From a virus, in IMG/VR virus record IMGVR_UViG_3300035670_000355, positions 1-47,380 of that record: 47,380 nucleotides of DNA, one strand, 5' to 3'. A program made the translations under genes and the position numbers. The notes below the pieces were generated by a model. That model did not search any database. It saw nothing but the letters and a program-made list of their open reading frames with translations, and was not told the origin of the DNA. Shown piece by piece: positions 6,833-47,212 of the stretch (positions are counted from its first letter, which is position 1; the number at the start of each line of letters is the position of its first letter).

Positions 6833-6862
6833 CAAAAAGCCCGCCACAGAGGGCGGGCCTGC
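6833..6862 (-). terminator. Rho-independent terminator of the immunity operon
   Basis: On the minus strand a GCCCGCC...GGCGGGC stem is followed by a T-run (complement of AAAAAGCCCGCC at 6836-6847). It lies 19 bp beyond the end of the 6881-7450 gene, in the convergent gap with the 6227-6811 gene. Confidence 0.85.
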
Positions 6863-6880: not shown

Positions 6881-7450
6881 TCAAGCCGACTTGCGTCGAG
6901 AACCCGGCGATTGTGCGGCAAGGGTTGCCGCGTCGAAGCTGACGAAGTGCATCAGCCGATGCTGCAACCAGGTCAGGTGAACGATGGGCCCGTTGTCGCC
7001 CAGGTTCAACTGGTTCTGACAGTGGGCCACCAGGGCGTGCAGAGTGGCAGGTTCGGTGACTTCGATTTCGATCAGCTTGGCGGCCATCTCGTCACAGGTG
7101 GTGGGGCTCCAGTGCTCCCCGGCACGCTCAAACTCGGCTCGCAGCTTTCGGAAGCTGGCGGCTAGTTCGCCGTGGCGTTTCGCGACCGCTGCAGGGTTGA
7201 AAACCAGAGGGATCAGCGAGAGCAGGGCGGTGAACGCCGCCGCCAACTTCCCCAACCCTTCGGAGTCGCCAAGCAGCGACGCGACGGCAGATGTCGCAGA
7301 TAGGGCCGTGATGATGGCTATGCCCTTGTCTACCTGATCAAAGAACCTCTCACGCAGGAGGTGGTAGACGATCGACAGCCGAACCTTGTAGAGCAGCGAC
7401 GAACGCCTTTTCCAGCAGTGGTCAGCAATTGCGTTTTCAGCTTCTGTCAT
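6881..7450 (-). CDS. Two-TM membrane protein (SLATT-like)
   Basis: A 189-aa protein with two adjacent hydrophobic helices at residues ~44-62 and ~68-85. A helical segment follows (AVAKRHGELAASFRKLRAEFE) of the sort seen in SLATT-type membrane effectors. It is the last gene of the leftward immunity cluster and is preceded by a CTCCTAGCATGG element (see the motif feature) and a Shine-Dalgarno. SLATT proteins are often defence-related effectors, so superinfection exclusion is a reasonable guess, not a demonstrated role. Confidence 0.6.
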   Translation of the reverse strand: MTEAENAIADHCWKRRSSLLYKVRLSIVYHLLRERFFDQVDKGIAIITALSATSAVASLLGDSEGLGKLAAAFTALLSLIPLVFNPAAVAKRHGELAASFRKLRAEFERAGEHWSPTTCDEMAAKLIEIEVTEPATLHALVAHCQNQLNLGDNGPIVHLTWLQHRLMHFVSFDAATLAAQSPGSRRKSA

Positions 7451-7479: not shown

Positions 7480-7491
7480 ATGCTAGGAGCG
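7480..7491 (-). promoter_or_regulatory. TAGCAT motif before 6881-7450 gene
   Basis: On the minus strand CTCCTAGCATGG lies in the gap between the 60-aa Pro-rich gene and the membrane protein, 29 bp before its ATG. It matches the motif found before several late genes on the plus strand (consensus TYCNTAGCAT). This is a candidate -10-like element or regulator site. Confidence 0.45.
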
Positions 7492-16465: not shown

Positions 16466-16665
16466 AGTGCGTGAAATGCGGGAGGCCTCTCGGCCCCAAG
16501 CCCGCCGCAACCGTCCAGACCGCCCAAGGCCTGAGCGCCTGGGGCCCGGTGTGCGCCCGCCGCGCCGGCCTGATTGCGGCCAAGCCGCGCCAGCGATCGC
16601 TGAAGGTCATCCACCAGGCGCAGGAGGTTGACCCTCGCCAGATCCCCCTGGAGCTCGCAGCATGA
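16462..16665 (+). CDS. 67-aa zinc-ribbon protein
   Basis: GTG start (GTGA overlap). N-terminal CVKCGRPLG and a later Cys in GPVCARRAG indicate a small zinc site. It stands immediately before ninG, with a 4-bp overlap. Function unknown. Confidence 0.6.
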   Translation: MKCVKCGRPLGPKPAATVQTAQGLSAWGPVCARRAGLIAAKPRQRSLKVIHQAQEVDPRQIPLELAA

Positions 16666-17354
16666 AGCGATCCCCAATGAAGCGTTACGCCCCGCTCAGG
16701 GCGAAGGCCTCGCCATCGACCAGCGTCAAGCCGGTCAAGCCCAAGGTCTGCGACAAGCGCAAGGGCGGGTGTGGTTTCAAGTTCACGCCGGCCAGGCCCA
16801 TGCAGATCATGTGCGGCCCCAAGTGTGCCCAGGGCCACGCTGAATGGCTGAGCGCCAAGAAGCAGGCCGCCGCGGTCAAGCAGGACCGCAAGGAGACCAA
16901 GGCCAAGCTCGAGCAGATGAAGACCAAGCCTCAACTCGAGAAGGAAGTCGAGAAGGCCATGAACCACTTCGTGCGCCTGCGCGACTGGGACAAGGGCTGT
17001 GTGTCCTGCGGCAAGCAATTCAACCCCGACCAGATCGGCGGCAGTTGCGACGCGGGGCACTACCGCAGCAAGGGCAGCGCCATCCATCTCCGGTTTGATC
17101 AGCGCAACGTGCACGGCCAGTGCAAGCACTGCAACGACTACTTGGGCGGCAACCCGACCGGCTACAGGGTGGGGCTCATCGCCCGCATCGGGCTGGAGGA
17201 AGTCGAAGCCCTCGAGGCCGACCAGGAGCCGCGCAAGTACCTAAAGGACCATCTGCGCACCCTGCGTGACGTATACCGGGCGGCCGTCCGCCAGATGCTC
17301 AAGGGGCAAAAGCCAGTCTCCCTAGCATTGCTTGAACGCAATGGAGGCCAGTGA
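16662..17354 (+). CDS. ninG: NinG/Rap recombination nuclease
   Basis: A 230-aa NinG family protein. N-terminal basic segment MKRSPMKRYAPLRAKAS, a first zinc knuckle (CDKRKGGCGFKF ... CGPKCAQGH), a long coiled middle, and the C-terminal CVSCGKQFNP...CDAGHYRSKGS...NVHGQCKHCNDYLGGN, an HNH-like zinc fold. In lambda, NinG/Rap aids recombination and resolves branched DNA. The last codons contain one copy of the TCCCTAGCAT motif. Confidence 0.9.
   Translation: MKRSPMKRYAPLRAKASPSTSVKPVKPKVCDKRKGGCGFKFTPARPMQIMCGPKCAQGHAEWLSAKKQAAAVKQDRKETKAKLEQMKTKPQLEKEVEKAMNHFVRLRDWDKGCVSCGKQFNPDQIGGSCDAGHYRSKGSAIHLRFDQRNVHGQCKHCNDYLGGNPTGYRVGLIARIGLEEVEALEADQEPRKYLKDHLRTLRDVYRAAVRQMLKGQKPVSLALLERNGGQ
17319..17328 (+). 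promoter_or_regulatory. TYCNTAGCAT motif, copy 1
   Basis: TCCCTAGCAT, inside the 3' end of ninG, 22 bp before the GTG at 17351, which also has a GGAGG site. If TAGCAT is a -10-like box, transcription would begin about 15 nt upstream of that start. Confidence 0.4.
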
Positions 17355-17866
17355 TCGTGGCACGCCTAGCACGCAAATGGACGACGCCTTGCATTGGACA
17401 GCTCGCGCTGTTCGATGACTTCGGCGCGCCCGTTGTGCACTACCCGCAAGGGCTCACGCTGGTGCCAGATCACGCCAGCGTGCTGCCCGACTCCGAGGTG
17501 GCGGCCTGGGCCTTCAATGACCCAGAAGACCAGGACGAAGACATCCTGGTGACGTCTCCGATCATCAAGCGCATCGTCAAGGCGGCAGAAGCCGCCCCAC
17601 TGCAGATCAAGGGCCCCGCGTCCATTTTCGACATGGCCCACTTGCCCAAGCCCGTCACCGTCCGAATGGAGCGCCCCCAGGAGGGTGCATCCTTCCGCAG
17701 GATCGCCAGGGATGGCGGCGTGACCCGGTGCGTGAGGATCCAGGAGCAAGACACAGCCGAGTGGCAAGAGCGCGAAGCCGCGCGCCGGGCCCGCCAGCGC
17801 CCACCGAAGCCCACAGCCAAGGCCAAGACCAAGAGCCGCAAGCTGGTCGACCTCGTGGGGGTGTGA
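17351..17866 (+). CDS. 171-aa hypothetical protein
   Basis: Opens MIVARLARKWTTPCIGQLALFDD and ends in a very basic, disordered tail (RRARQRPPKPTAKAKTKSRK). It lies after NinG, where lambdoid phages carry the late regulator Q, so an antitermination or regulatory role is possible by position only; no Q-like domain is visible. Its stop overlaps the next ATG (TGATG). Confidence 0.55.
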   Translation: MIVARLARKWTTPCIGQLALFDDFGAPVVHYPQGLTLVPDHASVLPDSEVAAWAFNDPEDQDEDILVTSPIIKRIVKAAEAAPLQIKGPASIFDMAHLPKPVTVRMERPQEGASFRRIARDGGVTRCVRIQEQDTAEWQEREAARRARQRPPKPTAKAKTKSRKLVDLVGV

Positions 17867-18363
17867 TGACAGACCAATCAGAGGCCGTTCGCGCCATAGA
17901 GGCCGAAGAGATCCCCAGGTTGCTTGCCCGACTCAGGCACGATGAGTCTGCGGCGACGCTCCAACTAAAGATCCTGCTTGCCATGGGTTCGCTGCCCAAG
18001 GTTCTCGGGGTTCGCCCATTCAGGCGGCACGCTTTTGAGTACAGCTTCGGTGGGGGCCGCGCCGACCTGGTCTTGTTTCACCGCGACTTCGGCGTCACGA
18101 TCGTTGAGGCGAAGGCAGGTGGCGGAGCCAGGGAGATGGCGGCGGGGATCGGGCAGTTGTTCCTGTACCAAGCGGAAGCCATGCGCAAATTCAAAGGTGT
18201 TCACGCCCCCAAGTACATCAACAAGATCCTGTGCGCCCCTGTGCGAGCCGAGGATTCAATGTCCGTCTGGACGGCCTGCAATCTGGCCGGGGTCAAGTTC
18301 GTCCACCTGCAGGAGTTCAAGCCGTTCAAGGAGTCTCTGGTCTCCATGGGATTGGTGGTGTGA
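17866..18363 (+). CDS. PD-(D/E)xK nuclease-like protein
   Basis: A 165-aa protein. FGGGRADLVLFHRDFGVTIVEAKAG gives the Asp and the ExK pair of a PD-(D/E)xK nuclease core, followed by GIGQLFLYQAEAM. Such small nucleases in phages may resolve junctions or cut host DNA; the substrate cannot be told. It is the last gene before terminase. Confidence 0.6.
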   Translation: MTDQSEAVRAIEAEEIPRLLARLRHDESAATLQLKILLAMGSLPKVLGVRPFRRHAFEYSFGGGRADLVLFHRDFGVTIVEAKAGGGAREMAAGIGQLFLYQAEAMRKFKGVHAPKYINKILCAPVRAEDSMSVWTACNLAGVKFVHLQEFKPFKESLVSMGLVV

Positions 18364-18364
18364 C

Positions 18365-18982
18365 ATGGGGCGCAAGTCAGCACTTTCCCAGGAACAGGTG
18401 GTTTCGATTGAGCGCCGGCACTTCGTTGGGGGGGAGTCGCTCAACTCCCTCGCGAAGGAGTTCGGCGTCAACGAATCAACGCTTCGGCGAAAAATAAAGC
18501 CGAATAAAGCCGAAGCCCAAGGCGCAGCTAAGTCATTGATTCAATTGGCGACAGAGAAGGCTGCGGTGGATAAAGCCGCGAAGTCAATCGCCGATGAAAT
18601 CGCCGAATTGCCGATTGCTCGGCAGCAGATCGTGACGGACCTGTCGCGCATGTTGTCGAACATTTCGGGGCACCTTGCCGGGGCCGCTGAGTACAGTGCA
18701 GCAACAGCCCACCGGCTCGCCGGAATCGCCAACGCGAAGGTGATGGAGATCGATGACGCTTCGCCTCTGACAGCGCAGAGCCTTGATGCACTCAAGGGCG
18801 TTGCGGCCCTAACTGAACTCGCGAACAAGGCCGCGCACGTGCCGCTGAACCTCATCGCAGCGAACAAGGACACCGTCCAGCGCCTGAACGAGCAAGCCCC
18901 CGAGGCGCCGACCATCGACCCGAAGAAGCTGTCCGACGGCGCCCTGGAAGAACTGCTGAACGCCCGTGCTCCTGCTCAATGA
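18365..18982 (+). CDS. terS: Terminase small subunit
   Basis: A 205-aa protein. The N-terminal helix-turn-helix (EQVVSIERRHFVGGESLNSLAKEFGVNESTLRRKI) is the DNA-recognition domain; a helical oligomerisation region and a C-terminal segment meeting the large subunit follow. It overlaps the large-subunit start by 17 bp. It recognises the packaging site and feeds DNA to the motor. Confidence 0.8.
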   Translation: MGRKSALSQEQVVSIERRHFVGGESLNSLAKEFGVNESTLRRKIKPNKAEAQGAAKSLIQLATEKAAVDKAAKSIADEIAELPIARQQIVTDLSRMLSNISGHLAGAAEYSAATAHRLAGIANAKVMEIDDASPLTAQSLDALKGVAALTELANKAAHVPLNLIAANKDTVQRLNEQAPEAPTIDPKKLSDGALEELLNARAPAQ

Positions 18983-20384
18983 TGCCGACTTCCTGGAGGC
19001 TGAGCGGGAGTTCTGCCGCCGCCGCCTGGTCAACTTCATCAAGCGCGGGTGGCATGTGGTGGAGCCTGGCCAGCCGTATGTGCACGGCCGGCACATGGAC
19101 GCCCTGTGCGAACACCTCGAGGCGGTCAGCCGCGGGCAGATCAAGCGCCTGTTGATCAACATCCCGCCCGGCACGATGAAGAGCCTGAGCACGAACGTGT
19201 TCTGGCCATCGTGGGAGTGGGGGCCGATGGGGATGCCGTCCATTCGGTTCATCGGTGCCAGCCATGAAGAGAGCCTGGCCATCCGTGACGCCTTGAAGAT
19301 GCGCCGGCTGGTTTCGTCCGAGTGGTATCAGACCCTGTGGCCTGACTTGGCCCTGGTGGGCGACCAGTCCGAAAAGCGCAACTTCGAGAACTCCAAGACC
19401 GGATGGCGCCAGGCCTGCCCGGTGAAGTCGATGACGGGTAAGCGGGGCGACCGGGTGTGCTGGGACGACCCGCACAGCGTGGAAGACGCCCACTCACCGG
19501 CAAAGCTGGAGGTGGCCACCCGGATCTTTCGCGAGACGCTGCCAACCCGACTGAACAGCCCGAAGGAGTCGGCCATCATCATCGTGATGCAGCGTCTGGG
19601 CACGAAGGACGTGTCAGGCGAGATCCTGGAAGGCGATTATGGGTATGACCACCTGTGTCTGCCCATGGAGTACGAGGGCTCGCAGAAGATCACCAGCATC
19701 GGTTTCAAGGACTGGCGCACCGAAGAAGGGGAGTTGCTTTTCCCTGAGCGGTTCCCGCGGGAGGTGGTCGAGCGCGACAAGAAGGTCATGGGCGCCTATG
19801 CCGTGGCCGGCCAGTTCCAGCAGCGCCCATCACCAAAGTCGGGCGGCCACTTCGAGGTGGACCAGCTGACCATCGTCGACGCCATCCCCGGCCCGGTGGT
19901 GCGCTGGGTCCGTGGGTGGGACTTGGGGGCCACCACAACAGGCGACTACACGGTTGGGGCCAAGTTGGGCTTGCTGGCCGATGGCCGGTTCATCGTCGCC
20001 CACGTCGAGCGGGAGAAGCTCAAGACCCACGACCGCGACAAGCGGATGAAGGACACCGCGGACAACGACGGGCGCGGAAAGGTCAAGCAGTCCATACCCC
20101 AAGATCCAGGGCAGGCCGGCAAGTCCCAGGTCTTGGCGTTTGCGACCCTGCTGGCCGGGCACAGCCTGCACTTCAGCCTGGAATCAGGCGACAAGGTTGT
20201 CCGGTCTGAGCCCTTCGCCTCCCAGGTCAATGCCGGGAATGTGGTCTTGCTCAAAGGCCCATGGAACAAGGCTTTTACCGAGGAACTGCAACTTTTCCCG
20301 GGCGGCTCCTACGACGACCAAGTGGACGGCGCCTCCCGCGCGTTCAACGAGCTCATGCAGCCCGCAGCCGGGATCTTCGCTTGA
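18966..20384 (+). CDS. terL: Terminase large subunit
   Basis: A 472-aa packaging ATPase/nuclease. NIPPGTMKSLS is the Walker A loop, VCWDDPHS the Walker B, IIVMQRLG the coupling/arginine region, and GWDLGATTTGDYT begins the RNase H-like nuclease with SYDDQVDGASRA as the late Asp motif. The GTG start overlaps terS. It drives DNA into the prohead and cuts genome ends or concatemers. Confidence 0.92.
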   Translation: MLLLNDADFLEAEREFCRRRLVNFIKRGWHVVEPGQPYVHGRHMDALCEHLEAVSRGQIKRLLINIPPGTMKSLSTNVFWPSWEWGPMGMPSIRFIGASHEESLAIRDALKMRRLVSSEWYQTLWPDLALVGDQSEKRNFENSKTGWRQACPVKSMTGKRGDRVCWDDPHSVEDAHSPAKLEVATRIFRETLPTRLNSPKESAIIIVMQRLGTKDVSGEILEGDYGYDHLCLPMEYEGSQKITSIGFKDWRTEEGELLFPERFPREVVERDKKVMGAYAVAGQFQQRPSPKSGGHFEVDQLTIVDAIPGPVVRWVRGWDLGATTTGDYTVGAKLGLLADGRFIVAHVEREKLKTHDRDKRMKDTADNDGRGKVKQSIPQDPGQAGKSQVLAFATLLAGHSLHFSLESGDKVVRSEPFASQVNAGNVVLLKGPWNKAFTEELQLFPGGSYDDQVDGASRAFNELMQPAAGIFA

Positions 20385-20390
20385 TCGGCC

Positions 20391-20400
20391 TCCCTAGCAT
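20391..20400 (+). promoter_or_regulatory. TYCNTAGCAT motif, copy 2
   Basis: TCCCTAGCAT in the terL-neck gap, 6 nt before the ATG at 20407. No Shine-Dalgarno lies between. As a -10-like element it would give a leaderless message. Confidence 0.5.
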
Positions 20401-20406
20401 GGCCGC

Positions 20407-20745
20407 ATGTCCTCGCTCGCCTCTTGGTCCTACACCGCCAAAGCCACGCATTGGCCGCTGATCGCGGTCGATGACTGGTCGCGCGTGGCCACTTTCGGCC
20501 CGCCTTCGGTGTTCGACTGCGACTACAAGGCCGAGGCCAAGCGGATGACCGATGCCAAGGGCGTCGAGTTCACGAGCTCACAGCTGATTTACACCGAGCG
20601 GGCTGACATCAAGCCGGGTGATCGGGTGCTGGTCGGCGAGCACGCTGGCGACCCGATTGCGGCCGGTGCGCGGGAGGTGAGGGCGGTCAAGCGTGACGCC
20701 GACACCTTCAACCGTGTGGCCGATGACTTTCAGGTAGCAACATGA
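20407..20745 (+). CDS. Putative neck/head-closure protein
   Basis: A 112-aa protein (MSSLASWSYTAKATHWPLIAVDDW ... KPGDRVLVGEHAGDP). By family feel and its position before the gp10-like and tail-terminator genes it is a connector (head-completion) protein. No Shine-Dalgarno sequence; the TAGCAT element ends 6 nt upstream. Confidence 0.6.
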   Translation: MSSLASWSYTAKATHWPLIAVDDWSRVATFGPPSVFDCDYKAEAKRMTDAKGVEFTSSQLIYTERADIKPGDRVLVGEHAGDPIAAGAREVRAVKRDADTFNRVADDFQVAT

Positions 20746-26158: not shown

Positions 26159-26161
26159 AGC

Positions 26162-26171
26162 TTCCTAGCAT
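26162..26171 (+). promoter_or_regulatory. TYCNTAGCAT motif, copy 3
   Basis: TTCCTAGCAT between the DUF1833 gene and the NlpC gene; the ATG at 26179 lies 7 nt downstream. A TTGAGT hexamer 15 bp upstream is the only -35-like sequence found at any copy. Confidence 0.5.
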
Positions 26172-26178
26172 GGGTGGA

Positions 26179-26583
26179 ATGCTGCCCCTCATGACGCCCC
26201 AGGAGTTCGCCGCCCGCGCTGTCGGCGTTCAGTGGGCGCGCTGGCGCTCGGACTGGTCTGGCATGGATTGCTTCGGCCTGGTGGTGCTGTTCTTCCGCGA
26301 GGTGCACGGCCTGGACATCGGGCCTGTGCCACACACCGACGTCGCCGACGGGTTCGCCGGCCAGCCTGAGCGCTGGACAGACTGCGACCCAAAAGCGGGC
26401 GCCACCATGTGGATGAACTGGAAGGACGGTGGGCCGAGCCATGTCGGCATCCTGCTGACTGATTCCACGGTCCTGCATGCCGAAGGCCAGCACGAGTGCG
26501 GCGGCAGTGTCCGGGTAACGCGCCTTGACGTCATGGAGCGCTTCTACGGGCCTTCACGATTCCTGAGGCCTGCCACATGCTGA
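26179..26583 (+). CDS. NlpC/P60 tail-tip peptidase
   Basis: A 134-aa protein. WSGMDCFGLVVLFFREVHG holds the catalytic Cys and GPSHVGILL the His; VLHAEG is the third conserved block. It would cut peptidoglycan cross-links as the tail penetrates the cell wall. The ATG at 26179 is preferred (an upstream in-frame ATG at 26170 lies within the TAGCAT motif). Confidence 0.85.
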   Translation: MLPLMTPQEFAARAVGVQWARWRSDWSGMDCFGLVVLFFREVHGLDIGPVPHTDVADGFAGQPERWTDCDPKAGATMWMNWKDGGPSHVGILLTDSTVLHAEGQHECGGSVRVTRLDVMERFYGPSRFLRPATC

Positions 26584-29057
26584 TCATCCTCAACGACCCG
26601 GCGGGCGTCACCGGCCGCCATCGCCACCCGCTTGACCCGACGGTCAGCCTGCAGGCCAACATCGAGCGGCACATCTCGTGCGGCTTCGAGTGCTCGCTGA
26701 AGATCAACGGCCAGGAGGTTGACCCGTTCACGGACCCGCGCCTGGAGGCGCCCCCAGTTGTCAGCGACACGGTCATCCTGACTCGCCGGCCTGCTGGTGG
26801 CTTGGCCGGCCAGTTGCTTGGTGGTCTTGCGGGCCCTTCGGCGGCAAAGGCGGTTGTCGGCCTGCTTGCGCCGGTCCCCGACATCCCCCAGGTCGCCAAC
26901 TACGAGAACTCGGGCACGGCGGTCAGCAAGAACAGCCCGAACAACTCGCTGACGGCTCAGTCGAACGTGGCCCGGGCCTATCAGGCGATCCCGGACGTCT
27001 ACGGCTACCGCAGGGTTTGGCCTGACCTGATCCAGCCCTCCACGGTCGAGTACATCGACCACATCAAGTACGTCACCGAGTGGATGTGCGTCAGCCGCGG
27101 CAAAGGCACGATCACCGATGTCCAGTACGCCGACACCAGCATCTTCAACATCGCCGGCGCCTCTTACCAAGTGTTCGAGCCCCAGGTTTCGGCGAGCTAC
27201 CCTGAGTTCAGCACCACGGTTCTGACCGATGTCCTGGAGGCGTTCGAGAGTCCGGAAGTCAACGGCCAGGAACTGGACTACCCGGGCGAGGTGGCCGCCA
27301 TCGTGCGCACCGGTTCGTTCAATGCCGTCTCTGGCGCGACCACCTTCACGATCACGGTGCCCGATGGCTCCACGCTGGACAACGTCAAGGCCCTGGCTCC
27401 GAGCGGAACAGCGGTGGTGCAGTTCAGCTATGGGGCTGGCCCGACGGCATTCAATCAGACCTGCACCATGACCGGCTTTACGACGGCAGCGGGCCTGGTG
27501 ACTTTCACATTCAGTTCGACGGCTTGGGGGGCAAACGAATTTGGCTCTGGCATTGCCTTCAGCATCGACCCCAACCTGGTCGCCGAACAGGTGCTTGGGC
27601 CTTACACATTGGCAGTGCCCTGCAGCCGGATTCACTGGAACATCGTGTTCCCTAGGGGCCTAAAGGGTACTGTTCAAGTGCGGGCTACCTGGTGGAAGGT
27701 CAACGATGGTGGAGAGGAAATCTATGGGTCCAGAGAGACCAGAGTAGATACCTTCTCGGATGACACGTTCGATCAGCGGTTCTACACCATCAAGGCCACG
27801 CCGGCCGCTGGTCAGGGAAAGTACCAGGCAAAGTTCAGTCGTGTGACTGCCCAAGTCGACGCAAATGGCAGTGACATCGCCAAGCTCGAAGAGGTCTATG
27901 CGGTGCGTTACTACGCGACCAAGAGCCTGCCGGGTGTGACCATCATCAAGGTGACGACCAAGGCCACCGAGCAGGCCACGGGTTACAGCGAACGCAAATT
28001 CAATGTCCGGTGGCTTCGTCATGTACGAAGCCTGACAAGCGATGTGCTGAGCCCATCCCGCAACTTTGGCCGAATCATGGCGCACATCTGGACCTTGGCG
28101 GGCAACCAGATCACGTGGCTGGATGTGGCAAAGCTGGCCGAGATCAATGCCGAGTTCGGAGAGGATTCGGCCCTCCTGCGCTTTGATGGCTCATTCGATG
28201 ATGCCGACCTGAGCCTGGGCGAGCGAATGCAGATCGTGGCCAACCACGCTCGGTGCACGCTGTGGCGTGACGGCTTGCGCTGGACCTGCACGCGCGACCA
28301 AGAAAAGCCATACCCTGAGATGCAGTTTGATTACCGCAATCTGGCGGCAAACGGTGAATCGTCCATTGCCTACTCTGCGAACCTGCCGGCCTCTTATGAC
28401 GGGATCGAGCTCGAGTACGTCAAGGAAGACACCCAGGCGACGAAGGCCTATGTCCGGCTGTCGATTTCCTCGGGCGCCGTCGTGTCAGGTTCGAGTCGCA
28501 ACCCCAAGAAGATCCGCCTCTCAGGGTGCACGACCATGGCGCAGGCCGAAAACCGCGCACACATGGAGGCCCGTCGCCTGCTTTACCAGCGAATAACGGT
28601 GAGCGACACAGCGCTTTCCGATGCCGCAGCGCTTGGCCTGGGCGCCCTGGTGCGCTGGGTTGACCCGGCCGACTTCGGCGGCGAAGAGGGCTTGCAGGCG
28701 GGGGAGGTCATCGGCATCGATGGCGACATCATCACCACCAGCGAGCCCCTGGAGTGGTCAGGCGAGGCCACCGGCCGCATCATCTTCACCGGCGCCGACG
28801 GGCAGTACTTGGGCACGCCGGTGGAGTGCTACCCGGCGGCCGGTGGGCGGGTTGAGCTGGCCAGCGTGCCGACCGGGCTCTATGTCGCCGATGGCGCGCG
28901 CCAGTGCGGCAGCCGGTACGCCTTCGCGCCGGGCCTGACCGCCGCAGAGGTTGAATCGCAAGGCCTGTACACCCTCACCGAAGCAACACCGGGCGGCGAC
29001 GGAACCGTCTCCATAGCATTGGCCCAGTACGACCCACGAATCTATGAGGCCGACTGA
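26577..29057 (+). CDS. Host-specificity/tail-tip hub protein (J/TipJ-like)
   Basis: An 826-aa protein. It begins with a ubiquitin-like stretch (DPAGVTGRHRHPLDPTVSLQ) and a Gly/Ala-rich hydrophobic patch (residues ~65-100). It continues with VYGYRRVWPDLIQPS and a long body containing SDVLSPSRNFGRIMAHIWTL and LWRDGLRWTCTRDQEKPYP, the plan of lambda J-type proteins. It forms the tail tip and contacts the receptor. One copy of the TAGCAT motif (29010) lies near its end. Confidence 0.85.
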   Translation: MLIILNDPAGVTGRHRHPLDPTVSLQANIERHISCGFECSLKINGQEVDPFTDPRLEAPPVVSDTVILTRRPAGGLAGQLLGGLAGPSAAKAVVGLLAPVPDIPQVANYENSGTAVSKNSPNNSLTAQSNVARAYQAIPDVYGYRRVWPDLIQPSTVEYIDHIKYVTEWMCVSRGKGTITDVQYADTSIFNIAGASYQVFEPQVSASYPEFSTTVLTDVLEAFESPEVNGQELDYPGEVAAIVRTGSFNAVSGATTFTITVPDGSTLDNVKALAPSGTAVVQFSYGAGPTAFNQTCTMTGFTTAAGLVTFTFSSTAWGANEFGSGIAFSIDPNLVAEQVLGPYTLAVPCSRIHWNIVFPRGLKGTVQVRATWWKVNDGGEEIYGSRETRVDTFSDDTFDQRFYTIKATPAAGQGKYQAKFSRVTAQVDANGSDIAKLEEVYAVRYYATKSLPGVTIIKVTTKATEQATGYSERKFNVRWLRHVRSLTSDVLSPSRNFGRIMAHIWTLAGNQITWLDVAKLAEINAEFGEDSALLRFDGSFDDADLSLGERMQIVANHARCTLWRDGLRWTCTRDQEKPYPEMQFDYRNLAANGESSIAYSANLPASYDGIELEYVKEDTQATKAYVRLSISSGAVVSGSSRNPKKIRLSGCTTMAQAENRAHMEARRLLYQRITVSDTALSDAAALGLGALVRWVDPADFGGEEGLQAGEVIGIDGDIITTSEPLEWSGEATGRIIFTGADGQYLGTPVECYPAAGGRVELASVPTGLYVADGARQCGSRYAFAPGLTAAEVESQGLYTLTEATPGGDGTVSIALAQYDPRIYEAD
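29010..29019 (+). promoter_or_regulatory. TYCNTAGCAT motif, copy 4
   Basis: TCCATAGCAT, in the coding end of the tip gene, 37 nt before the fibre ATG at 29057, which has its own GAGG site. Confidence 0.35.
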
Positions 29058-30672: not shown

Positions 30673-30676
30673 TGCC

Positions 30677-30686
30677 TTCCTAGCAT
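30677..30686 (+). promoter_or_regulatory. TYCNTAGCAT motif, copy 5
   Basis: TTCCTAGCAT in the tail-to-head junction; 8 nt before the portal ATG at 30695, with no Shine-Dalgarno between. Confidence 0.5.
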
Positions 30687-30694
30687 GGTCTGTT

Positions 30695-32035
30695 ATGAGC
30701 CATGTCGTCGTCAACGTTGACCAGTCGGTGATCCGCAGCCGGGAGGAACTCCTGGCGTTTGCCATGGGCCTGGACAGCAAGCGCCCCACTGCCTGGGTGC
30801 AGTACGGATGGCCGTCCGAGGTCACGTTTGACCAGATGTACCGGGCGTATGAGCGCACGGGCGGCGGAAATGGCGCGGTGCATCGGCTTCTGGATGGGTG
30901 CTGGCAGGCACTGCCACGCATCAAAACCCCGAAAACCGATGACGTCTCACCATGGGAGACGAAGGTCAACGAACTATTCGATGACCTGGAGCTCTGGGCG
31001 AAGTTCAAGGAGTTCGACCGTCGCAACCTGATCGGTCGCTACTCGGGCTTGATCTACCGCGTCGCCGACGGCAAGGCGCTAACAGAGCCGATGGAGCGAG
31101 CGTCCAAGCTCGTCGACATCATCCCTGTGTTCGAGAACCAACTGAAGGTCACAGATTGGCACAGTGACCCGAGCGACGCTGAGAACTACGGCAAGCCGCG
31201 GATGTTCCAGTATCGCAAGCGCGCGATTGCATCCCAAGATGCAAGCGGTCAGCCTGACGAATGGGCAGACGTCCACCCGAGCCGCGTTCAGATCTTCGCC
31301 GAAGGGTCGGTCGGAGACATGTATGAGGGGGTGCCCCTGCTGCGTGCCGGCTTCAATGACCTGGTGAACATCGAGAAGATCAGCGGCGGCTCCGGCGAGT
31401 CGTTCCTGAAGAACTCCGCGCGGACCATCGTCTTCAAATACGACGCGAACGCTCAGGTGCAGGCCATCACCACGCAGGAAGGGCAGACCAAGACTGTCCG
31501 CGAGGTGCATGAAGAGCAGTCGAAGTCGATCAACCGGAACCAGGACTCTTCGATCGTGATGCAGGGCGGCGACGCGACCACTCTGCAAACCTCGATTTCT
31601 GACCCTAAGCCTTCGTTCGAGGTGTCGGCCAACAACTTCGCTGCCTCGGTGCGCTTGCCGTTCACCGTGATCTTCGGGCAGCAGACCGGTCGCTTGGCCA
31701 GCAACGAGGACAAGGCAGACGCGATCGCCCGCTACAAGTCGCGCCAGGCGAATGAGTTGACGCGCATCATCAAGGATTTCGTCCGCCGCATGCAGGCGGC
31801 CGGCGTCATCGAGGACGGCAAGTTCGAGGTTGAATGGCCGGACATTGCCGCGCCTTCCGACGACGAGAAACTGGGCAACCTGACCAAGATGACACAGGCC
31901 ATGACGGCAGCCTTTCAAGCCGGCCTTCCGCCGATCTTCACCGTCGAGGAACTGCGCAAGGTGGCCGGATACAAGGAAGCGCTGCCGCTCCTGCCGATGG
32001 GTGAGGGCGATCCTGCCGGCGATGCCCCGCCGTGA
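30695..32035 (+). CDS. Portal protein (DUF1073 family)
   Basis: A 446-aa portal. The N-terminal wing region includes MYRAYERTGGGNGAVHRLLDGCWQALP; the core SSIVMQGGDATTLQTSISDP and LPFTVIFGQQTGRLASNEDKADAIARYKSRQ are typical of DUF1073 portals. It forms the dodecameric DNA gateway of the capsid. It starts the head module, which here follows the tail module. Confidence 0.85.
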   Translation: MSHVVVNVDQSVIRSREELLAFAMGLDSKRPTAWVQYGWPSEVTFDQMYRAYERTGGGNGAVHRLLDGCWQALPRIKTPKTDDVSPWETKVNELFDDLELWAKFKEFDRRNLIGRYSGLIYRVADGKALTEPMERASKLVDIIPVFENQLKVTDWHSDPSDAENYGKPRMFQYRKRAIASQDASGQPDEWADVHPSRVQIFAEGSVGDMYEGVPLLRAGFNDLVNIEKISGGSGESFLKNSARTIVFKYDANAQVQAITTQEGQTKTVREVHEEQSKSINRNQDSSIVMQGGDATTLQTSISDPKPSFEVSANNFAASVRLPFTVIFGQQTGRLASNEDKADAIARYKSRQANELTRIIKDFVRRMQAAGVIEDGKFEVEWPDIAAPSDDEKLGNLTKMTQAMTAAFQAGLPPIFTVEELRKVAGYKEALPLLPMGEGDPAGDAPP

Positions 32036-32952
32036 GGAAGCGCCGAAATCCGATCATCCCCGGCGACACCCGGGACCGCACCGGGTCGGCCGGCATCCTG
32101 CGGCGCGCGGCAGCAGAGATCAATCGGCGGTTCGCTGGCCTATCCAAGGAGGTGCTGGCGATCTTTGATGGAATCCGGTACTACAACCTCAACGACGCCC
32201 GGGTCATGTACGGCCTGACGCCGGAAGAACTGTCGGCCGTTTCCCAGGCCCTGGCCACTGCGCTTGATCGGTGGTTGGCAGAGGGGCAACAAACCGCGCA
32301 CCGGTTCTGGTGGGCACCGTTCGACGCGGAGGCATCCCAGCTGGGAACCGCGCAGTCGGTCGCCAATCTGACGGGCTTGTCGGAGGTCTACGCGGCTTCG
32401 CGCACCCTTCAGCAAGTCATCTACTCCGAGCCCTACCGCAGCCGGGTCGCTGTCGCCCAGATCAAGAGCTACGACCAGTGGAAGAGCCTGTCGGAGTCGG
32501 TGAGGTCAGAGCTTTCCCAGACCATCGGGCGAGCCGTCATCGATGGCCAGGGCCCCAAGGCTGTGCGCAAGGAGATCATGGCCCGGCTGGACGTCGGCAA
32601 GTCCCGGGCGATGCTGTACGCTCAGACCGACATCACCGAGACGCTTCGCCAGGCGCGGATGGCCGAGGCCGAGTTCGCCGCCGAGCAGTTGGGCATCCGA
32701 TCGGGCCTGCTGTGGACGTCAGCCCTGATCCCGACCACCCGGCCGCACCACGCCAGCCGAAACGGCAAGGTCTACACCCCCAAGGAGGTGCGCGACTTCT
32801 ACTCCAAGGGTGGGGAGCGTTACCGTTGTCACTGCGGGGTCACCGAATGTCTGCTTGACGATGCCGGCAAGCCCATCCTGTCGGACGCCCTCAAGACCCA
32901 GATGAATGGTGAGCTTGCAGCTTGGAAGAAGGCGCAGGAGCAGTCTTCCTAG
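32032..32952 (+). CDS. Head morphogenesis protein (Mu gpF/SPP1 gp7-like)
   Basis: A 306-aa protein, GTG start overlapping the portal stop. The C-terminal block TDITETLRQARMAEAEF ... TTRPHHASRNGKVYT and YRCHCGVTECLLDD is the Mu F-like minor head domain with its Cys/His cluster. A minor capsid component associated with the portal. Confidence 0.85.
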   Translation: MRKRRNPIIPGDTRDRTGSAGILRRAAAEINRRFAGLSKEVLAIFDGIRYYNLNDARVMYGLTPEELSAVSQALATALDRWLAEGQQTAHRFWWAPFDAEASQLGTAQSVANLTGLSEVYAASRTLQQVIYSEPYRSRVAVAQIKSYDQWKSLSESVRSELSQTIGRAVIDGQGPKAVRKEIMARLDVGKSRAMLYAQTDITETLRQARMAEAEFAAEQLGIRSGLLWTSALIPTTRPHHASRNGKVYTPKEVRDFYSKGGERYRCHCGVTECLLDDAGKPILSDALKTQMNGELAAWKKAQEQSS

Positions 32953-32955
32953 CAT
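32946..32955 (+). promoter_or_regulatory. TYCNTAGCAT motif, copy 6
   Basis: TTCCTAGCAT, overlapping the end of the head morphogenesis gene and 8 nt before the DUF2213 ATG at 32964, without a Shine-Dalgarno. Confidence 0.5.
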
Positions 32956-32963
32956 GCGGACGC

Positions 32964-34256
32964 ATGAAGACCCGCGTCCACATCCTCTCGGCGGTCAACG
33001 CCTCGAACGTCTCCAAGACTGGCAGCACGTACACCATCAAGGACGTGTGCGGCGCGGTCGATGGCATCGTCATGAACTCGGCGCTTTACCCGGCTGAAGA
33101 GCTCAAGACGGGTGTGTCGACCATGAACGGCAAGCCGGCGCCGGCAGGGCACCCGAAGGACGGCCAGGGCCGGTTCATCAGCGCGCTCAACGGTGAGGCC
33201 TTGCTGAACAGCTACATCGGCAGCATCTGCACGAATGCGCGCCACGAGGGTGGGCGCTCCCTGTTCGACATTGTGGTCAACGAGGCCCAAGCCAAGGCGC
33301 ACCCGGAAGGCCAGAAGCTGGTCGAGCGCCTGGATGCAGCCATCAACGGCCAGAACGCCGACCCGATCCACGTCAGCACCGGCCTGGTCTGCAAGATGGT
33401 CACGGCCAATGGCGAGAGCGGGGGCAAGAAGTACAACCGGATCGCCACGGGCATCGAATACGACCACCTGGCCATCCTGCTCAACCAGTCTGGAGCCGGC
33501 ACGCCCGAGCAGGGCGTCGGCATGTTCCTGAACTCCGAAGGCCAAGAGGTGGAGGTCGAATCCGTGAACGTCAGCACCGAGCCGGTGGACCGGCGCTTTG
33601 AAGGCGTGGCCGGCTGGCTGCGCAAGCTTCTGGGCAACTCCGACCTGTCCTTCGAGCAGATCTATGACGGCCTGCGCGCTGTCCTGCCCGAAGGCGCCTG
33701 GGCGCGCGAGGTCTTCAGCAAGTCCGTGATCTACGTCGACAAGGCCGACAAGCTGTACCGGCAGGACTACGCGGTCGATTCGACCGGCTCCGTAGCATTG
33801 CTCGGGCAACCTGTGGAAGTGGTCCGCAAGGTCGAGTACGAACCCATCACCAACAGCAACGAGGTGGATGCCGTGAAAGACAAGATCCTCGCCGCGCTCA
33901 ATGCAGCCGGCATCAAGACGGAAGGCCTGGACGAGTCCCAGTTGCTGACCGCTTACAACGCCCTGGTCACCAAGCCTGTCGAAGACAAGCTGACGGCCGC
34001 CAACTCCAAGATCGCCGAGTTCGAAATGAACCAGCGCGCTGCGGCCGAAGCCGAAGTCAAGGCCCTGGCCGCCGAACTCGCCGTCAACAGTTCCCTGACC
34101 GTCGAAGACCTGCAGAAGCTGGGCCTCGATCGTCTGAAGGAACTCAAGGCCAACAGCAAGGCCGCCCCGATCGTGGTGACCAACCAATCGGGCGCCACCC
34201 AATCCGAGTTCGCGGGCTACTCCCTGAACTCTCACCTCTCTGAAGGGAGCAAGTGA
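32964..34256 (+). CDS. DUF2213 prohead protease/scaffold
   Basis: A 430-aa DUF2213-type protein. The N-terminal ~220 residues (KTGSTYTIKDVCGAVDGIVMNSALYPAEEL, KPAPAGHPKD, VSTGLVC and YDHLAIL pieces) are protease-like. The C-terminal ~130 are helical and Ala/Glu/Lys-rich (LTAANSKIAEFEMNQRAAAE), like a scaffold. A GAGGTGG followed by GTG at 33873, 74 nt after an internal TAGCAT (33789), could start a separate scaffold product from the same frame, as in lambda C/Nu3; that is unproven. Confidence 0.75.
   Translation: MKTRVHILSAVNASNVSKTGSTYTIKDVCGAVDGIVMNSALYPAEELKTGVSTMNGKPAPAGHPKDGQGRFISALNGEALLNSYIGSICTNARHEGGRSLFDIVVNEAQAKAHPEGQKLVERLDAAINGQNADPIHVSTGLVCKMVTANGESGGKKYNRIATGIEYDHLAILLNQSGAGTPEQGVGMFLNSEGQEVEVESVNVSTEPVDRRFEGVAGWLRKLLGNSDLSFEQIYDGLRAVLPEGAWAREVFSKSVIYVDKADKLYRQDYAVDSTGSVALLGQPVEVVRKVEYEPITNSNEVDAVKDKILAALNAAGIKTEGLDESQLLTAYNALVTKPVEDKLTAANSKIAEFEMNQRAAAEAEVKALAAELAVNSSLTVEDLQKLGLDRLKELKANSKAAPIVVTNQSGATQSEFAGYSLNSHLSEGSK
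33789..33798 (+). promoter_or_regulatory. TYCNTAGCAT motif, copy 7
   Basis: TCCGTAGCAT inside the DUF2213 gene, upstream of a possible internal scaffold start (GTG at 33873). Confidence 0.3.
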
Positions 34257-36512: not shown

Positions 36513-36540
36513 CAGGAGCCCGCCACGTGCGGGCTTCGTC
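36513..36540 (+). terminator. Terminator closing the head module
   Basis: AGCCCGCcacGTGCGGGCTTCGTCG: a GC-rich hairpin followed by a T-containing tract, 16 bp beyond the last head gene. The next gene carries its own TAGCAT motif downstream of this hairpin, which fits a fresh start of transcription. Confidence 0.7.
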
Positions 36541-36550
36541 GTTTCTGGCC

Positions 36551-36560
36551 TCCCTAGCAT
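36551..36560 (+). promoter_or_regulatory. TYCNTAGCAT motif, copy 8
   Basis: TCCCTAGCAT directly after the terminator at 36513-36540 and 37 nt before the spike ATG, which has a GGAG site. This position, terminator then motif then gene, is the best single hint that the motif acts in initiation. Confidence 0.5.
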
Positions 36561-44791: not shown

Positions 44792-45023
44792 GCTCCACCT
44801 CCTGGCCCGCCAGGCTGCGCACCACCTCGATGGGCCAGACCTTGATGCTGCTGCCTGCCAGTTCACGGCCTGCGGGCACCTTGCCAGATGCCACCCAGCG
44901 GTGCCAGGTGGAGCGATCAATGGGGAGCAGGCCCTGCTTGCCCGTCTTCGGGTTGCGGCAGATGTCCTGCACGCGCACCAGGGCGCCTGGAGGGTAGGGC
45001 TTGGGGGGTGTCGCGGCGTTCAT
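44784..45023 (-). CDS. AlpA/excisionase-like HTH protein coupled to the DGR RT
   Basis: A 79-aa protein. VRVQDICRNPKTGKQGLLPI, then RSTWHRWVASGKVPAGRELAGSSIKVWPIEVVRSL (in parts), gives a MerR/AlpA-type helix-turn-helix and wing. AlpA-like proteins act as excisionases or activators. Its ATG overlaps the RT stop (ATGA) with a GGAG upstream, so it is made together with the RT. It could be the phage excisionase or a DGR-linked regulator. Confidence 0.7.
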   Translation of the reverse strand: MNAATPPKPYPPGALVRVQDICRNPKTGKQGLLPIDRSTWHRWVASGKVPAGRELAGSSIKVWPIEVVRSLAGQEVEHA

Positions 45024-46222
45024 GCGAATCTCCGGTATGTTTTGGTCAATTCGGCCTTGACCGCGTGCCCGCGGCCCCGCAGCAGGTTGGCAAGCTGGGC
45101 GCGGTCGTGGTGGCTGTGGGTGGCCTGGCGCAGCAGGCCGAAGTAGCTGTTGGCGCTCTCCAGCAACTCGCCCGCTTCGGTGTGTGCGAGCCGGTCGAGG
45201 GCCACATGCAGGGTCTTCCTGCGCACCGTGCGTCGCCATGGCTTGATGACCTGGCCGACGAAGTCAACGCCGCGATGAAGCGGCTGGATGATGGTCTTGC
45301 GCGGGTTCAGGCGTGCTGCCAGTTGCTCAGGCAGGAAGGCTTCGATTTGCCGGTGGGCGTGGCTGAGCCACTCGGCGGACTCGTGCAGCAGCACGAAGTC
45401 ATCGACGTAGCGGATGTAGTGCCGGGCCTTAAGGCCGTGCTTGGCGAACTGGTCCAGCTCATTCAGGTAGACGTTGGCGAAAAACTGGCTCGACAGGTTG
45501 CCGATGGGCAGCCCCAGGCGGGCGGGTTGCTCGGCCAGTCGCTTGTGGCGCGGAACCAGGGCCAGCATGCTGGCGTCGCCGCGCAGTTCGAAGTCCTGGC
45601 GCGGGTCGTGGTGCAGCACGGTGTGCATCAGCGTGCGCCACCATGGCTCGGGCACGTGGCGGTCAAGCAGGCCCTGCAGGATGACCTTGTCGATGCTGAC
45701 GAAGAAGTTGGCCAGGTCGCACTTGAGGTAGTGCGCTGTGCGTGCCCAGTTCTGGGTGACGCTGCGCACCTTGGCCTCAAGGCGGTTGGCGGCGTAAAGC
45801 GTGCCGCGCCCCGGGATGCAGGCGCAGCTGTCAGCGATGAACCGGGCGTAAAAGCGCGGTGCGATCCGGTTGTGCAGCAGGTGGTGCACGACGCGGTCGC
45901 GGAACTCGGCGGCCCACACCTCGCGTGGCTTGGGGTGGGTGATGACAAAGCAGATCGAGCGGCCGGGCTTGTAGGCACCGGCCAGCAGCTCGTCGTACAG
46001 GTCACGGAGGTTGCGCTCCAGGCGTGCTTCGAAGGCCAGCGCGCTGGCGCTGTTGCGCTTGGTGCGGCGGCAGTCGAAGTAGGCCTGGGCGACTTCAGCA
46101 AAGGTCAGGTCAGCAGGTGCGCTCCAATCTGCGGACGGCTCGGGCACGGAACTCGTTGTTCTTGTGGTTGTTGTTCTGGTTGCCGTTGTTGAAGTTCTGA
46201 TACCAAGCCCAGGAGGACCCAT
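45020..46222 (-). CDS. DGR reverse transcriptase
   Basis: About 400 aa from the ATG at 46222, of which ~365 form the enzyme. RT motifs: YLKCDLANFFVSIDKVILQGLL (fingers) in parts, LPIGNLSSQFFANVYLNELD (motif 4 with the DGR-type GN.SSQ signature), YIRYVDDFVLL (catalytic YVDD) and GVDFVGQVIKPW. It copies TR RNA with adenine errors and delivers it to VRs. The frame is open across the TR and no ATG/GTG/TTG follows it, so the true start is unclear. It follows avd and TR in the order of BPP-1. Confidence 0.93.
   Translation of the reverse strand: MGPPGLGIRTSTTATRTTTTRTTSSVPEPSADWSAPADLTFAEVAQAYFDCRRTKRNSASALAFEARLERNLRDLYDELLAGAYKPGRSICFVITHPKPREVWAAEFRDRVVHHLLHNRIAPRFYARFIADSCACIPGRGTLYAANRLEAKVRSVTQNWARTAHYLKCDLANFFVSIDKVILQGLLDRHVPEPWWRTLMHTVLHHDPRQDFELRGDASMLALVPRHKRLAEQPARLGLPIGNLSSQFFANVYLNELDQFAKHGLKARHYIRYVDDFVLLHESAEWLSHAHRQIEAFLPEQLAARLNPRKTIIQPLHRGVDFVGQVIKPWRRTVRRKTLHVALDRLAHTEAGELLESANSYFGLLRQATHSHHDRAQLANLLRGRGHAVKAELTKTYRRFA
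46124..46217 (-). repeat. DGR template repeat (TR)
   Basis: A 94-bp template between avd and the RT. In coding orientation its variable block is rich in AAC/AAG codons, typical of DGR templates, and it shares the invariant 5' (TGGGCTTGG) and 3' (CGTGCCCGAGCC...) flanks with VR-a, VR-b and VR-c. It carries 24 adenines in the variable block. Confidence 0.93.
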
Positions 46223-46358
46223 CGTGCTTGACACGTCGCCCTGCCGAGTGCTCAGCAGGGAAACTGCGCCGGACCTTCCTGGCGCGATGCCAGGGGTCTC
46301 CGTGGTGCGCATGGCGGTGGCCTTGTGAGCCAGCTGCACGACCAGATTGAAAGAACGC

Positions 46359-46733
46359 TCAGGCATGGCGGCCTTGACCTCCATGCTGCGGGCGTGTTGC
46401 GCTGCGGCGCCACCCGTTGGCCTGCTTCCCGATGCTGGTGGTCAGCTCGACCGCCTTGGCATAGCCGGGCTTCGAGATGAGCCTCTTGTCCATGGCCAGG
46501 CGGATCATGAGCTCGATCACCTGCAGGCGCTCAAGCAGCTCCAGCAGGTGCGGCCCCTTGTCCTGCGCAACGTTGGCCCGGAAGACCAGCACCGTGATCT
46601 CGATGCACTCCGTGGCGATCTTGTCGCCGATGGAGCGCTTGAAATCCCGCTGCATGTTCTTGACCAGGTCGGTGACCACGTCGAGCAGGTCGTAGGCGAC
46701 CTTGTAGATGGGAAGTTGGGTGTGGGTGGCCAT
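46359..46733 (-). CDS. avd: DGR accessory variability determinant (Avd)
   Basis: A 124-aa four-helix-bundle protein: PIYKVAYDLLDVVTDLVKNM, KRSIGDKIATECIEITVLVF, LLELLERLQVIELMIRLAMD and YAKAVELTTSIGKQANGWRR are the four helices. Avd binds the RT and TR RNA and is required for mutagenic homing in BPP-1. It lies between the last variable protein and the TR, as in BPP-1. Confidence 0.92.
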   Translation of the reverse strand: MATHTQLPIYKVAYDLLDVVTDLVKNMQRDFKRSIGDKIATECIEITVLVFRANVAQDKGPHLLELLERLQVIELMIRLAMDKRLISKPGYAKAVELTTSIGKQANGWRRSATRPQHGGQGRHA

Positions 46734-46753
46734 GCTGATTTCAAATGACCAAA

Positions 46754-47212
46754 TTACTCAATGACCAATCTGCGGACGGCTCGGGCACGGAACTCGTCGT
46801 ACTTGTGGCGGTCGCTCTGGTAGCCGTCGCCGAAGTGCTGATACCAAGCCCAGGAGGAGTTGGTCTCGTGGGCCTGGCCGGACCAGTACCAGGCCTCTTG
46901 GAACTCGCCCTTGAGGTTGGCGAAGAGCAGCGACTGCTCGGCCCGCGTGGGCAGCTCGCCGCCTTGCTCGGTGGCCCAGGCAATGGCCTGCTCCCAGGTC
47001 TTGTCTTCGGCTTCGCCGGGCAGCAGCACCAGGTGGTGGCTGGGCTTGCCTTGCTCGTTCAGGATCAGGCCTGCGTAGCGCTCGCCCTGGCTCAGCTCGA
47101 TGTCGGTGCCGGGGATGTGCAGGATGGCGGGCAGCGCCGCCTTGAAGGAATCGATCAGCTTGCCCAGCTCGATGTGGCGGGCCTGCAGATCTTCGATGGT
47201 GATGGTTTGCAT
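46754..47212 (-). CDS. DGR variable protein (complete copy)
   Basis: A 152-aa protein. A helical lead MQTITIEDLQARHIELGKLI, then RYAGLILNEQG, LVLLPGEAEDKTWEQAIAWA, GGELPTRAEQSLLFANL and AWYWSGQ make the DUF1566/C-type-lectin-like core; the C-terminus SSWAWYQ...EFRARAVRRLVIE is variable. No signal peptide, no membrane segment and no fibre domain, so the product is predicted to be cytoplasmic or virion-internal unless attached to another protein. It is the copy nearest avd. Confidence 0.88.
   Translation of the reverse strand: MQTITIEDLQARHIELGKLIDSFKAALPAILHIPGTDIELSQGERYAGLILNEQGKPSHHLVLLPGEAEDKTWEQAIAWATEQGGELPTRAEQSLLFANLKGEFQEAWYWSGQAHETNSSWAWYQHFGDGYQSDRHKYDEFRARAVRRLVIE
46765..46858 (-). 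repeat. Variable repeat VR-b of the DGR
   Basis: Aligned with the TR over 94 bp. Eleven substitutions, all at template adenines; the invariant IMH part is unchanged. It forms the 3' end of the 46754-47212 gene. Confidence 0.92.

Follow-up and report, generated by a model that had tools for sequence, protein, structure and literature searches.

Results and discussion

A recurrent element in the late genes

At this locus the question arises why one short sequence, TYCNTAGCAT, recurs along the head-tail genes of a phage, repeatedly a few nucleotides before a start codon, and what might read it. The late genes of temperate phages are usually thought to be served by one promoter together with an antiterminator or activator. 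In the present case, many one-piece promoters appear to be distributed along the late operon, with RNAs that would begin at the start codon itself.

The window (i.e. the whole stretch of DNA that was analysed, 47,380 nt) belongs to a temperate, siphovirus-like phage. Its head-tail module, which includes the genes for TerL, the tape measure, NlpC/P60, a tail protein of the J-like type, the portal and the major capsid, has an integrase gene, genes for RecE/RecT-type recombination and replication genes on its flanks. At the record end, positions 45020-47212 of the minus strand look like a diversity-generating retroelement, with the following putative parts:

45020-46384, minus strand: reverse transcriptase
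46215-46397, minus strand: Rfam RT-15 RNA
46359-46733, minus strand: bAvd-like accessory protein
46754-47212, minus strand: Lcl_C-like C-terminal match

The earlier note on this DNA had listed eight plus-strand copies of TYCNTAGCAT and one near-match on the minus strand. All eight were recovered at the positions given there, compared with a mean of 0.11 expected for both strands (100 dinucleotide shuffles), and the near-match was found as CTCCTAGCAT at 7489-7480. Each of the window's nine TAGCAT hexamers, including that of the near-match, stands in this sequence context. The motif had been said to end 6-8 nt before an ATG without ribosome site in four cases, and it is exactly these four (6, 7, 8 and 8 nt for the genes at 20407, 26179, 30695 and 32964, respectively) that combine the short distance with the lack of a Shine-Dalgarno sequence, the remaining five (17319, 29010, 33789, 36551 and 7480 on the minus strand) being farther from a start or intragenic. 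The copy described as following a terminator is that at 36551, which does lie 3' of a terminator-like hairpin. The extent of the motif had to be revised in part: the TYCNTAGCAT core is real, but the preceding 5' C (82% C) belongs to it too, and the consensus element is 11 bp long, CTYCCTAKCAT. Two gene starts were corrected by means of the element, the mechanical open reading frame calls (26170, 32922) falling inside or upstream of it. The sites in the window are:

7480..7489, minus strand: near-match CTCCTAGCAT, 29 nt 5' of ATG 7450 of the minus-strand gene 6881-7450
17318..17328, plus strand: element CTCCCTAGCAT, at the NinG 3' end, 22 nt 5' of GTG 17351 (candidate factor gene); predicted autoregulatory site
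20390..20409, plus strand: putative late promoter element CTCCCTAGCAT, 6 nt 5' of ATG 20407 (phrog_797); predicted leaderless start; 12/25 relatives
26161..26181, plus strand: putative late promoter element CTTCCTAGCAT, 7 nt 5' of ATG 26179 (NlpC/P60 tail gene); predicted leaderless start; 18/48 relatives
29009..29019, plus strand: element CTCCATAGCAT, inside the J-like tail gene at its 3' end, 37 nt 5' of ATG 29057; predicted leadered start; rare codons kept, 20 relatives
30676..30697, plus strand: putative late promoter element CTTCCTAGCAT, 8 nt 5' of ATG 30695 (portal); predicted leaderless start; 52/55 relatives
32945..32966, plus strand: putative late promoter element CTTCCTAGCAT, 8 nt 5' of ATG 32964 (phrog_760 / DUF2213); predicted leaderless start; 27/37 relatives
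33788..33798, plus strand: element CTCCGTAGCAT, internal to the phrog_760 gene; conserved site
36515..36537, plus strand: terminator-like hairpin, just 5' of the element at 36551
36550..36560, plus strand: element CTCCCTAGCAT, 37 nt 5' of ATG 36598, which has a Shine-Dalgarno sequence; predicted leadered start

The site inside phrog_760 (33789-33798) may drive a nested product (e.g. a scaffold) or the downstream capsid genes. The minus-strand gene 6881-7450, which lies 3' of the near-match, gave weak matches to two-transmembrane effector models.

Conservation in related phages

Relatives were gathered via the J-like protein, which yielded about 50 in IMG/VR (42-83% identity) plus prophages in Pseudorhodoferax sp. 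Leaf265, Roseateles terrae, Pseudacidovorax intermedius and one Burkholderiaceae metagenome-assembled genome. Most of these relatives, including dozens of metagenomic phages, carry the motif, at GC contents of 51-69%. With the TCCCTATCAT variant counted, near-complete motif-bearing phages have about five to nine copies each, versus one or none of a reversed control pattern.

The motif is also conserved at the same genes, an outcome that favours the promoter reading of the earlier note: after removal of near-identical windows, and uncorrected for phylogeny, it was found 5-9 nt before the start of portal in 52/55 cases, of phrog_760 in 27/37, of NlpC/P60 in 18/48, of phrog_797 in 12/25 and of g21113 in 7/23, and before none of the TerL (0/36), J-like (0/47), g34253 (0/32) or major capsid (0/28) genes. 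It precedes either phrog_797 or g21113 (two genes on) but never both (both 0, one 19, none 4), which fits a signal for a stretch of the operon rather than for a single gene.

One clade (G004, L021, L118) is without the motif, but at a few sites genes of these kinds are preceded, at 6-7 nt, by TGTAGACT, which also speaks for promoters. The motif-less relative L150 (G004) has gtgtcgatggRTAGACTatagcgcc...gcaataccgttcgtcgg in three dispersed and nearly identical copies, near 2539, 3166 and 3815, which may be operators or early promoters. In five relatives (L010:902, L011:1677, L012 minus strand near 6849, L134:4767 and L250:7312) the motif is followed by a conserved, partly non-coding stretch like GGATAGGGATGCAACCCGAARAGCCTTNAGCAAGCCTGCCG, for which Rfam gave no match at gathering scores. 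A megablast search of the late region against annotated phages gave no match, and when the literature was searched for the motif string, the sequences retrieved were all unrelated.

Evidence for a promoter

Most sites have an ATG or GTG 6-8 nt 3' of the motif, without a Shine-Dalgarno sequence. Exact copies located 6-8 nt before the start of an open reading frame (at least 100 aa) numbered 40 in 14 phages, compared with a mean of 3.6 in the 13 other 3-nt bins. A -10 box is likewise separated from the RNA start by 6-8 nt, and the sharp spacing between motif and start supports the promoter reading. It would, however, suit a ribosome-binding site too, and the element could then be an RNA element that replaces the Shine-Dalgarno sequence and to which a phage protein or the ribosome binds in order to start or time translation (such a translation-level role was the original idea for the start-associated sequences, SAS, of mycobacteriophages). 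This seems quite improbable in view of the conserved copies that lie 20-40 nt before starts or within genes, the distant copies near genes that often have their own Shine-Dalgarno sequence, and the terminators directly upstream. The missing Shine-Dalgarno sequence at close sites was itself set aside as a test, being partly circular (the motif fills its place).

Those terminators argue for promoters. Intrinsic terminators were found just upstream of 12/107 leaderless-type sites (11%), compared with 6/348 other starts (1.7%; p 9e-5), and in several relatives the phrog_760 / DUF2213 element lies directly 3' of one. In one relative (G010), the distance between the T-run and the ATG of the phrog_760 gene is only ~25 nt, which leaves room for little beyond a -10 box. 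Where the site is more than 10 nt from the start, a Shine-Dalgarno sequence is present in 31/68 cases, close to the rate of ordinary genes (46%, versus 11% at random positions), and this ordinary rate again argues for promoters.

The copy in the J gene allows the level of selection to be judged. Its TCC NTA GCA is kept in 20 relatives although the codons are rare, some of these phages having more than 90% GC at third positions (codon-probability product ~1e-61, uncorrected for kinship), which suggests that copies in coding sequence are held at the DNA level. All five copies in G010 have the form TCCCTATCAT, and for the copy in J this means a change from Ala to Ser; a variant common to all copies of one phage points to a trans-acting reader. 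Both findings bear on the idea that the motif is a boundary sequence that aids the exchange of gene modules between phages and has no role in expression. Its location at gene borders and its shifts between neighbouring gene starts would suit such a function, whereas copies within the J and phrog_760 coding sequences, the fixed distance to starts and the concerted change in one phage would not, which makes this the least probable of the explanations considered, with hardly any weight.

Altogether, the element is likely to be a promoter at which RNA starts, judged from sequence comparisons of the kind given above. For the close sites, we infer from the 6-8 nt spacing and the lack of a Shine-Dalgarno sequence that the mRNAs would be leaderless; leaderless genes are a minority in this bacterial group.

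The absence of a common -35, as claimed earlier, was borne out across 64 non-redundant sites, in which columns -60 to -2 carry no information, be it as a -35 or as any other upstream element, and the site alignment showed no TG of an extended -10 at the element. A promoter without -35 or extended -10 would be weak for bare host polymerase, which is a point against the present reading. Ordinary sigma-70 polymerase could conceivably suffice, TAGCAT being a -10 box that works alone: it fits TANNNT, a small number of host leaderless genes do have TANNNT 6-8 nt upstream, and in two genomes of Burkholderiales TCCCTAGCAT precedes an sbtA-like gene by 7 nt. This explanation is unlikely, since it has to do without both the -35 and the TG extension, leaves a conservation of CTYCC that exceeds the needs of sigma-70, and does not agree with the copies altered together in one phage or with the near-chance frequency of the spaced motif in host genomes.

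This frequency was determined in 150 genomes of the family, with ~130 occurrences versus ~55 for reversed controls, mostly scattered singly; 20 host matches that were read lay mostly before unrelated or tiny open reading frames. Use of the motif as a general host signal was therefore rejected, the count being near chance (about twice the reversed control). The sbtA-like bicarbonate transporter gene lies near 1020-1030 in L180 and L196, where TCCCTAGCAT, 7 nt and ATG follow each other, as possible host leaderless promoters. Together, this twofold excess and the sbtA-like gene in two genomes suggest that the polymerase of the host may make minor use of the element.

A candidate reader protein

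The phage-specific promoter reading calls for a reader, and the region just upstream of the terminase genes contains a candidate:

16662..17354, plus strand: NinG/Rap-like nuclease gene, carrying the 17319 element
17351..17866, plus strand: candidate late transcription factor, 171 aa, with QLALF at residue 17 and a conserved basic C-terminus
17978..18982, plus strand: open reading frame directly 5' of TerL, candidate small terminase; weak helix-turn-helix matches
18966..20384, plus strand: terminase large subunit; late operon start

Clustering of all open reading frames (blastp, E 1e-5) gave no regulator common to all motif-bearing phages, only structural genes. The factor arose from a partial cluster, after which a profile search extended its family to 12/12 near-complete motif-bearing phages, with absence from motif-less G004, the one near-complete relative on which the motif-less comparison rests. 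The member in G007, at the edge of the DNA examined, is a weak match backed by its QLDLF start. The phage activator guessed at in the earlier note thus has a possible counterpart in this family, whose occurrence goes along with that of the motif. The factor is also encoded in all four host genomes bearing such prophages and in 55 IMG/VR contigs; in these 55 loci the motif occurs 123 times on the factor strand and 7 times on the opposite strand, with 1 reversed control. The factor gene itself has an element just upstream in the window and in three relatives (G003, G014 and G009). L266 is an exception, in which a factor homologue with a changed end goes together with absence of the motif. Because factor and motif lie in the same structural module, their co-occurrence is confounded by descent. 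No simple link was seen between factor sequence and motif variant, RRARQVVPRP occurring with both TAGCAT and TATCAT.

The family is an undescribed and unannotated phage protein. Among 50,697 annotated phage records tblastn found none, PHROG, PDB-sequence and fold searches gave no match, Pfam gave none above cut-off, and likeness to sigma factors or to gp55/gp33 was not detectable. Its members share a basic C-terminus (consensus RRARQRPPKP..AKT..KL..LIG) behind a variable N-terminal part, and in AlphaFold models, of low overall confidence, a beta hairpin and then a helix are seen towards the C-terminus. At the N-terminal start, QLxLF, QMLLF, QLxLDL or similar was found in 27/29 aligned members versus 1.4% in shuffles, a somewhat favourable figure as the 29 were picked by plausible start codon; at least four further homologues, not part of this alignment (L248, L266, L269 and that of G001), are without the peptide. 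QLxLF is the consensus for protein binding to the bacterial beta clamp (PMC4549789), and its presence at the N-terminus suggests that the factor would hold RNA polymerase on the host beta clamp. That the factor reads or activates the element is plausible at slightly under even odds, and that it works through the clamp is a somewhat more tentative suggestion.

The gene content of these phages also bears on a repressor. Like the stoperators of phage L5, the sites are asymmetric, have one orientation relative to transcription and lie at gene borders, so that a prophage repressor might bind them to halt transcription. Unlike stoperators, they are concentrated in the late module, largely at late genes, and keep an exact distance to starts that would not be expected of repressor sites, and the motif-bearing phages have no repressor family in common, only structural genes and the factor, which renders this explanation very improbable.

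Proposed mechanism

The preferred reading as a whole (i.e. a phage-specific late promoter core, a candidate factor and assistance by the clamp) is given a probability of roughly 0.7. Host RNA polymerase would start 6-9 nt 3' of CTYCCTAKCAT, which would replace the -10 box, with no -35. Where the start codon coincides with the RNA start, a leaderless mRNA would result, and where the gene starts ~20-40 nt farther, a short leader, often with a Shine-Dalgarno sequence. The head-tail operon would contain about five to nine such promoters. For the element to be usable, the polymerase probably depends on the small phage protein encoded at 17351-17866, just 5' of the terminase genes, whose own gene often bears the element. 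Phage replication would load host beta clamps, the factor would bridge clamp and RNA polymerase, and the resulting clamp-factor-polymerase complex would open the -10-only element, by which late transcription would be tied to phage DNA replication. This putative, compact promoter-activator pair is offered as a test object.

Comparison with known systems

A resemblance to the SAS of mycobacteriophages had been noted earlier, and it holds as far as short asymmetric repeats a few nucleotides before start codons, shifting between genes as in cluster K, are concerned (PMC3203893). The likeness is superficial, however, as SAS are 13-bp sequences (GGGATAGGAGCCC) with a Shine-Dalgarno core, AGGAG, in the non-structural half of the genome (PMC3203893), whereas CTYCCTAKCAT has no such core and its sites lie in the structural operon. 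Leaderless mRNAs exist in Burkholderia cenocepacia, a related host, in which a TA-rich box is likewise found directly upstream of the start codons of leaderless genes; those are, unlike the present set, host genes, for which no common CTYCC extension is reported (PMC4603805). The middle and late extended -10 promoters of Thermus phage P23-45, which function with gp39, also have no -35 (PMC7403470). Unlike these, the present element has no extended -10 TG; the target of gp39 is sigma region 4, and the present factor was not seen to be related to gp39.

The late box of phage T4 is A+T-rich, unlike the CTYCCTAKCAT element with its predicted leaderless starts. Furthermore, the present phages are temperate, siphovirus-like and of Burkholderiales, and would employ the clamp of the host and one small protein without sigma likeness (no gp55-like sigma domain was found in the factor by Pfam, PHROG, PDB and fold searches), whereas T4 late transcription employs gp33 and gp55 with T4's own clamp, gp45 (PMC7892883, PMC2988020). 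What the two would share is a single -10-like element without conserved -35, present in many copies before virion genes (its promoter role being inferred here), and possibly a clamp-binding peptide, which the T4 phage proteins carry on a linker (PMC7892883, PMC2988020) and for which the QLxLF-like peptide of the aligned factor homologues is the candidate. The parallel with T4 is proposed to be functional, not homologous. More speculatively, and with about one chance in three in our estimation, these phages would have evolved a second, independent clamp-coupled late system, in which a new protein family, the host clamp and -10-only, mostly leaderless promoters allow virion genes to be expressed only from replicating phage DNA.
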